41,236 nucleotides of DNA from Planctomycetota bacterium (GTDB lineage Bacteria; Planctomycetota; UBA8742; UBA2392): positions 1 through 41,236 of the forward strand of contig JADLBZ010000097.1 of the NCBI GenBank assembly GCA_020847415.1, in the 5' to 3' direction. The notes under the pieces were generated by a model that was given only the letters and a program-made list of their open reading frames with translations, was not told the origin of the DNA and did no database searches. Made by a program: the position numbers and the translations under genes. Shown here in pieces: positions 19,592-21,507 of this stretch (the stretch's first letter is position 1; every line of letters begins with the position of its first letter).

Positions 19592-19681
19592 GGAGAGGTG
19601 GCAGAGTGGTTGATTGCGTCGGTTTCGAAAACCGATTTGGCTGAAAGGTCAACGGGGGTTCGAATCCCTCCCTCTCCGCCA
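19592..19681 (+). tRNA. tRNA-Ser (anticodon CGA), CCA encoded
   Basis: Acceptor GGAGAGG/CCTCTCC, anticodon stem TCGGT/ACCGA with loop TTCGAAA (CGA), long variable arm, GGGGGTTCGAATCCCTC T arm, 3' G-CCA. Confidence 0.95.
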
Positions 19682-19688
19682 GTTGAAC

Positions 19689-19716
19689 AGCCCCGCGATC
19701 GCGGGGCTTTCTGTTT
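19689..19716 (+). terminator. Rho-independent terminator after tRNA-Ser
   Basis: agccccgcgatcgcggggct hairpin followed by ttctgttt. Confidence 0.8.
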
Positions 19717-19731
19717 GCGGGCGTCCACCTG

Positions 19732-20277
19732 CTACGGCTGCATCTCCGGCTCCAGGTCAATGCCCAGGCCGTCGGCCAGCCGGTTCAGGTGGTTGAAGTA
19801 GCCAATGATCTGCGCTGCCGAGGCGATCTCTTCGTCGCACCAGCCGTGGTCACGCAGCCCCTGCACGTCGTTGCGGCTGCAGGTGGCCGGTTGCAGGGTG
19901 AGCTTCTCGGCCCAAAGGCAAAGGGCAAGGTGCGGTGCGTCCAGGCCCGCGGCGCGAAAGTCCTGCTGCACGGCCCCGGCCAGCGTTTCGTCACGGGACA
20001 TCTGCGCCAGATCCAGCGCATGGGCGCGCATTCAGTAGACGCAGCCGTTGGCCTTGCTGACCACAGTGGCCAGCAGCTCGCGCACCCAGCGGCGCAAGGG
20101 CCCCTTGCCCAGCATGACGCGGGTGTAGAAGTCCATGGTCGCGTCCAGGGCATCGGGCGTGAGCGACTGGATGCGCAGGATGTTGAAGACCTTGCCCGCA
20201 CGCTTGAGGCCGGCTTCGTACTGGGTCTTCAACAGCCCCTGGGCATCCTGGGGCTCAACTTGGCGGATATAGGCCAT
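19732..20277 (-). CDS. Carboxymuconolactone decarboxylase/AhpD-like peroxidase-related protein, probable selenoprotein (in-frame UGA at 20032-20034 read as Sec; U82)
   Basis: MAYIRQVEPQDAQGLLKTQYEAGLKRAGKVFNILRIQSLTPDALDATMDFYTRVMLGKGPLRRWVRELLATVVSKANGCVY-U-MRAHALDLAQMSRDETLAGAVQQDFRAAGLDAPHLALCLWAEKLTLQPATCSRNDVQGLRDHGWCDEEIASAAQIIGYFNHLNRLADGLGIDLEPEMQP. The two track ORFs 20032..20367 and 19732..20031 are contiguous and in the same frame; UGA replaces the second Cys of the CxxC(x3)H motif. Confidence 0.85.
19999..20022 (-). promoter_or_regulatory. Candidate bacterial SECIS stem-loop downstream of the in-frame UGA
   Basis: RNA CAUGCGC-UGGAUCUG-GCGCAGAUG: UGCGC/GCGCA stem (extendable by CA/UG across a 2-nt bulge), apical loop containing GG at 18-19 nt after the UGA. 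Confidence 0.6.
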
Positions 20278-20335
20278 GGGGCCAGTAAAGCGCCGCGGCT
20301 CAGGACCGGGAAGTGATTTCGAGCGCCAAAAAGAA

Positions 20336-20356
20336 GGGGCCCGCAATGCGGGCCCC
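20336..20356 (-). terminator. Terminator of the downstream-facing minus-strand gene 20377-21345
   Basis: ggggcccgc-aat-gcgggcccc perfect 9-bp stem, followed on the minus strand by TTCTTTTT. Confidence 0.85.
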
Positions 20357-20376
20357 CGTGAGTACACGGCGTCTGC

Positions 20377-21345
20377 TTACTTCCACTGCATCCAGTCGTA
20401 GTTGGCGACCCAGCCGGAGAACTGGCCGGCTGCGTTGGTGTGGAAGCTGGAAATGCTGGGCAGGTCCAGCATCACCTTGGTGTTGCGGGTGTTGTTCTGC
20501 CAGTCGAAATCCTGGTCAAAGCGCAGGCACAGGAAGGCGTCGCCCTTGTCGGAGTGGAACCAGTACGCGACGCTGTTGGTGTAGCGGTTCAGCAGCACAG
20601 TCGGCTTCTCGCCCATCTCGCCGATCTTCTGCAAGCGCTTGGCCAGCAGGGCATAGGGGTCCACACCCTCCTGCACGCCCGAGAGCAGCTCCAGTGTCTG
20701 GCTCTCCCACTCGGAGATACGCTCCTTCAGCTTGGCAGCGTCGCCCTTCTTGATGGCCTCGCGCAGCTCGGCGATCTGGGGCGAACCGTAGTCCACGTCC
20801 AGCTCCGAGAGGCGGTAGTTGCCGAGATACCAGTTGGGCTTGGCCTTGGGTGCCTCTTCGCCCTCCGGAACCTCAGCCCCTTCGTTGGCGTCTTCCAGGA
20901 CCATGCGCACCAGGTGGGTTCCCTTGGCGCTCTTGACCGGGATGACCGCGTAGGTGCCCACGGTGTTCTGGGCGCTGGCATTGCCCACTTCTTCGCCGAC
21001 GGACTTCAGGAACTTGGCAAGCACCTGCAGGTTGGTCAGCTTGTCGTCGCCGCCGTCCCAGCTCTCTTCGTCGGCGCTGTCGCGTCCTTCCTTCAGCAGG
21101 CAGGCCTTAAGGTCGGCCAGCTTGTCTTCCTTGGCGGCCTTCAACGCGCGGGCCAGCACTTCGCCGGGCTTCTTGAAGCCCTCGTCGGTGCCGTCCTTCA
21201 TGATCAGCTCACCCGGGGCGGGCAGCTTCTCGCCCATCTGCACCAGGGCCGGAGCTTCCTTGGTCTCGTCAGCCTGGACCGGACCGACGAACACAGCGCC
21301 CACCAGCAACGCCGCAGCAGCGGCAACGGCAACAAACCTCTTCAT
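20377..21345 (-). CDS. Hypothetical secreted protein
   Basis: MKRFVAVAAAAALLVGAVFVGPVQADETKE signal peptide; 322-aa body with no recognised motif. Confidence 0.7.
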   Translation of the reverse strand: MKRFVAVAAAAALLVGAVFVGPVQADETKEAPALVQMGEKLPAPGELIMKDGTDEGFKKPGEVLARALKAAKEDKLADLKACLLKEGRDSADEESWDGGDDKLTNLQVLAKFLKSVGEEVGNASAQNTVGTYAVIPVKSAKGTHLVRMVLEDANEGAEVPEGEEAPKAKPNWYLGNYRLSELDVDYGSPQIAELREAIKKGDAAKLKERISEWESQTLELLSGVQEGVDPYALLAKRLQKIGEMGEKPTVLLNRYTNSVAYWFHSDKGDAFLCLRFDQDFDWQNNTRNTKVMLDLPSISSFHTNAAGQFSGWVANYDWMQWK

Positions 21346-21401
21346 AGAATTCCTTTTGGTTTTGGCCCCGGCGCGGCCATCCCGCGCCCGTCGTGGCAAA
21401 G

Positions 21402-21429
21402 AGGTTACAATTTGCACAGCAAACGTCAA
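21402..21429 (-). promoter_or_regulatory. Candidate promoter for the 20377-21345 gene (TTGACG-16-TAACCT)
   Basis: On the minus strand TTGACG (21424-21429), 16-nt spacer, TAACCT (21402-21407). Confidence 0.35.
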
Positions 21430-21507
21430 TTCCGTCAAAAGTGCGACTGCACAAACACACCCCCACAGGAGGACGGGTGACCGAGCATCGAATCTTCAGG
21501 CTGGACC

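Follow-up and report, generated by a model that had tools for sequence, protein, structure and literature searches.

The analyzed stretch of DNA, here termed the window, comprises 41,236 nucleotides of a Planctomycetota MAG (3.58 Mb in 327 contigs, 85% complete). Two open reading frames on its minus strand, located at 20032..20367 and 19732..20031, lie in the same frame with a TGA (20034-20032) as their sole separator, exactly as described in an earlier, sequence-only reading of this DNA. Read-through from the ATG at position 20277 indeed yields the proposed protein of 181 residues (...ATVVSKANGCVY-U-MRAHALDL...), which possesses C79, U82 and H86. This ATG is the likely start of the gene, since homologues open with MAYIRQV at the same point, while the GTG at 20367, with which the upstream ORF opens, precedes a terminator-like hairpin (Table 1). 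The latter hairpin suggests that the gene is transcribed separately from its same-strand upstream neighbor. A promoter scan at the locus recognized none for this gene, and no clear Shine-Dalgarno sequence is visible ahead of the ATG at 20277. The ATG at 20031, with which the downstream ORF opens, is merely the codon following the UGA and occupies a variable position (M, T, A, V or I in homologues), and is therefore not a start, in agreement with the earlier view that this ORF is not an independent gene. Standard annotation would thus cut in two what is really one gene.

Table 1. Coordinates and strands of the features identified at the AhpD-like locus of the window.
Feature	Position	Strand	Remarks
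Very probable AhpD-like (TIGR01926, peroxidase-related) selenoprotein gene	19732..20277	-	181 codons plus TAG stop, UGA as Sec82; read-through translation
Sec UGA codon, residue 82, second Cys of CxxC	20032..20034	-	TGA at this column in 86/91 genes
SECIS-like hairpin UGCGCU-GGAUCU-GGCGCA	20003..20020	-	Stem of 6 bp; loop of 6 nt with GG at its start; 17 nt past UGA; -7.8 kcal/mol
Terminator-like hairpin separating the AhpD-like gene from the same-strand gene upstream	20335..20357	-	Consensus match only
GC-rich hairpin just past the stop of the AhpD-like gene	19689..19708	.	Consensus match only

A tRNA-Ser(CGA) gene (19592-19681, plus strand) is convergent to the AhpD-like gene and is located just downstream of its stop; when considered as a candidate tRNA-Sec it was rejected, its model score of 40.5 bits being below the cut-off of 47. 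The GC-rich hairpin located in this region was scored as a terminator of the plus strand, where it would come after the tRNA-Ser gene. Just upstream of the AhpD-like gene, and on the same strand, an ORF of 353 residues (20377-21438) matched nothing in Pfam; the actual protein may be shorter, as an internal ATG opens a stretch (MKRFVAVAAAAALLVGAVFVGPVQA) that resembles a signal peptide. None of the neighbors in the window, i.e., a CAAX protease, HU, a TadA-like deaminase, this 353-aa ORF and ATP sulfurylase, was found within 1.5 kb of the homologues from the same taxonomic family, and the genomic context therefore indicates neither a function nor a pathway.

The read-through protein matches the NCBIfam model TIGR01926 'peroxidase-related enzyme', which we take to be equivalent to COG2128, with 124.2 bits (E 4.7e-36; curated cut-off 81.8 bits) across residues 4-177, a match to which both halves contribute, while it also matches Pfam CMD (E 2.8e-9). 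An AlphaFold2 model (pLDDT 88.4) is all-helical and its predicted fold is AhpD-like, the nearest PDB fold being that of 6K40, the AhpD of Deinococcus radiodurans (E 5.8e-10, TM 0.75). This protein and the peroxidase-related proteins 2PFX, 2OYO and 3C1L share the fold and length of the window protein at about 30-36% identity, yet their active site reads CxYC-x3-H, with a Cys where the window protein has Sec. The active site of the latter is E67-x11-C79-V-Y81-U82-x3-H86, of which the E67, C79, Y81, U82 and H86 columns are invariant in the homologue alignment (with U taken as C), and the AhpD proton relay pattern E-x11-C-x-[HY]-C-x3-H is present. In PA0269 from Pseudomonas this relay consists of E36, C48, Y50, C51 and H55 (PMC3141380). 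Both PA0269 and the AhpD of Mycobacterium tuberculosis possess the five-residue relay with a spacing identical to that of the window protein, which resembles PA0269 in having a Tyr at the relay position in place of His132 (PMC3141380). The overall identity of these two proteins to the window protein is low, and the M. tuberculosis AhpD is a weak fold match (TM about 0.5).

The claim that the UGA sits exactly at the second Cys of the AhpD active site was substantiated by the homologues, which carry Cys or Sec at this column. Among 91 distinct Planctomycetota genes that were aligned, the U82 column is TGA in 86 (window included) and Cys in five, and none of the 91 contains another in-frame stop. 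The six rows scored as Cys in the alignment table hold five genes, L031 and L093 being one and the same, while L098 (from genome G087) had no stop in the phylum search listing, yet the retrieved DNA has TGA at the site and it was counted among the 86. The TGA is thus found on the catalytic Cys position in 85 other genes, with no further in-frame stop in any of the 86, which places its location far beyond chance; a random stop at this position had already been judged unlikely from the single gene. Within the taxonomic family of the window, whose homologues in public records stem from Planctomycetota MAGs and thereby assign the window to this phylum, the gene is present in nine of 16 genomes (including that of the window), each time with a single TGA. 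Furthermore, 120 of 392 sampled Planctomycetota genomes contain a match at E <= 1e-25, nearly all with a single TGA, and the TGA form is present in 114 of the 392. A quick tree of low support groups 81 Sec forms in one main clade, to which none of the Cys forms belongs; the latter are intermingled with a few Sec forms. In each of eight same-family comparisons, the window gene showed a dN lower than dS both upstream (dN 0.10-0.34) and downstream (dN 0.25-0.40) of the UGA, with dS ranging from 0.55 to 1.50, and the part following the UGA is therefore under protein-level selection in the same frame. What is encoded is thus one continuous protein, with selection acting both before and after a conserved in-frame UGA. 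Several Planctomycetota genomes (G148, G292, G211, G189, G043, G035, G075, G145 and others) contain two TGA-containing paralogues, and the second copies G075:C364 and G354:C10 also have a TAG inside the matched stretch.

The presence of selA, selB, selC and selD in the source genome had been put forward as a test of the selenoprotein reading, and all four were found: matches were obtained for selA (552 bits), selB (310 bits) and selD (387 bits), and a tRNA-Sec (selC) with a UCA anticodon is encoded. The selD gene is itself of the Sec type, with the motif HGAGUGCK and one in-frame TGA (L015 1468-2532; G000:C85:10546-11469), and represents a second selenoprotein of this genome besides the AhpD-like one. 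Across the phylum sample, selA was detected in 109 of the 114 genomes with the TGA form versus 132 of the 278 others (Fisher p 3e-22, not corrected for phylogeny); incompleteness of the MAGs could explain the five TGA-form genomes in which no selA match was obtained. Seven genomes of the same family (G007, G008, G010, G011, G013, G014 and G004) possess selA and have no Sec AhpD match; the Sec system of these genomes may be kept up by other selenoproteins, or the MAGs may have gaps. In G325, a genome without an AhpD-like match, a selA homologue (G325:C70:13854-15215) contains one TGA and one TAA, possibly reflecting decay of the Sec system.

The published bSECIS model entails a loop of 3-9 nt, a stem of 4-16 bp, a spacing of 16-37 nt and an MFE <= -7.5, as well as a G among the first two loop positions (PMC13188914). 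A search downstream of the UGA, as advised by the sequence-only reading, identified a hairpin that fits this model (Table 1), being marginal for the window alone; when a longer stretch was folded, a competing fold was found to beat it. The evidence is considerably more pronounced across the homologues: the best bSECIS-shaped hairpin following the UGA in the 86 genes has a mean energy of -7.76, compared to -4.15 in synonymous recodings (z -9.8), while the same test at ten other offsets along the gene returned z from -4.3 to +2.3. When stretches of 58 nt were scored by plain MFE, their z-scores did not stand out (+0.58 for the window), and the folding energy in 45-nt windows is low elsewhere in the gene too (for example, z -8.7 at offset -135), so that generic MFE is not specific evidence for a SECIS; a location-specific signal was given only by the bSECIS-shaped hairpin test.

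The hairpins were found to occur in two registers (L016-L024 versus L032-L092). In the window's family and in a few others, the hairpin has a GGA(C/U) loop and lies at about +17/18, while that of most other homologues has a loop of the GGUC or GUG type and lies at about +24/25, the former thus being ~7 nt closer to the UGA. When the window's family is set aside (77 genes left), 78% of cells are paired in the +24/25 register, compared to 35-47% when this is slid by 1-3 nt, and compensatory pair types are observed (e.g., C-G/G-C at 17-36 and C-G/T-A at 20-33). RNAalifold gave no helpful consensus for the nine same-family sequences; as the members differ in hairpin register, it placed its pairs around the UGA itself. 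Given the two registers, the recoding signal may have moved within one gene family. We consider the chances to be evenly balanced that the Sec form is the rule in this TIGR01926 subgroup across Planctomycetota, with Cys being rare and the SECIS occurring in two alternative registers.

A continuous frame interrupted by TGA may also arise in other ways. A nonsense change of TGC or TGT to TGA in an ordinary Cys-containing AhpD-like gene, be it in a pseudogene or through an assembly or sequencing error, would need a single base change, and the MAG at hand is a draft in 327 contigs. This explanation is refuted by the recurrence of the TGA across genera and families, at the identical column in 85 independent homologous genes that lack other stops; the presence of TGA at the same site in other assemblies also argues directly against a sequencing error, a point which the sequence-only reading had proposed to check. 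As dN furthermore remains below dS downstream of the UGA and the genome encodes selA/B/C/D, a pseudogene or error is exceedingly improbable. Genome-wide reassignment of UGA to a standard amino acid, or its read-through as Trp or Cys, formally predicts a continuous protein too, yet the other genes that were examined, both in the window and elsewhere in the genome, read as open under table 11, a dedicated Sec system is encoded, homologues without the TGA always have Cys at the aligned residue, and a SECIS-like hairpin follows the UGA; a code change was rejected on these grounds and its likelihood is negligible.

The gene product is consequently almost certainly an AhpD-like (TIGR01926/COG2128) thiol/selenol redox protein that contains Sec. 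SelB would bind the hairpin and bring Sec-tRNA(Sec) to the UGA. In the product, the selenol of Sec82 would attack and the thiol of Cys79 would resolve, while E67, Y81 and H86 may constitute the proton relay known from AhpD. The substrate to be reduced would be a peroxide or an oxidized/disulfide partner, after which the protein would be re-reduced by an electron donor. It is possible, although rather unlikely, that this Sec-containing family member is not a peroxidase and is instead another thiol-redox or CMD-fold enzyme, e.g., a disulfide reductase or a Bmp8-like reductive dehalogenase. The fold also matches that of the debrominase Bmp8 (6ohi/6ohj, TM about 0.67), and most TIGR01926 proteins are functionally uncharacterized, the name 'peroxidase-related' denoting no assayed activity; however, the closest relatives by both sequence and fold are AhpD or peroxidase-related proteins, and the proton-relay residues are conserved.

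Sec-containing AhpD-like proteins, which the sequence-only reading correctly cited as known in bacteria, have been in the literature since 2005, when the Sargasso Sea selenoproteome yielded 27 sequences of CxxU AhpD-like selenoproteins of COG2128 (PMC1088965). 'AhpD-like 1' was subsequently reported as abundant in the 2008 GOS data, with 299 sequences (PMC2398784), and a 2026 catalogue lists an AhpD-like protein of TIGR01926 with CxxU, MCB9421940.1 (PMC13188914). The window protein shares the family model, the CxxU motif and the Sec position with these proteins (MCB9421940.1 being compared by its catalogue description) and differs from the catalogued members in its origin from a Planctomycetota MAG. 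It also shares the AhpD core with CxxU (E 6.7e-15) with NF041238, the AhpD_rel_CFYUT alkylhydroperoxidase-related (seleno)protein, yet that family is longer (357 positions) and the 55.2 bits obtained fall below its cut-off of 175, and the window protein is thus not a member. In a non-exhaustive search of the open-access literature on planctomycetes, selenoproteins and AhpD, one paper was identified (PMC1794560), and the passages located in it contain no description of the gene for this phylum. The CxxU AhpD-like selenoprotein is therefore a known kind, of which the present member is new, while the near-fixed Sec form in a Planctomycetota subgroup and the SECIS hairpins in two registers may be undescribed.

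The present analysis corrects a gene that is otherwise split by standard annotation into two hypothetical ORFs, and indicates that in a large and little-studied phylum the AhpD-like redox protein of this subgroup would almost always be a selenoprotein. If true, the two alternative SECIS registers would furthermore represent a natural data set on, and a natural test of, the tolerance of SelB to spacing.
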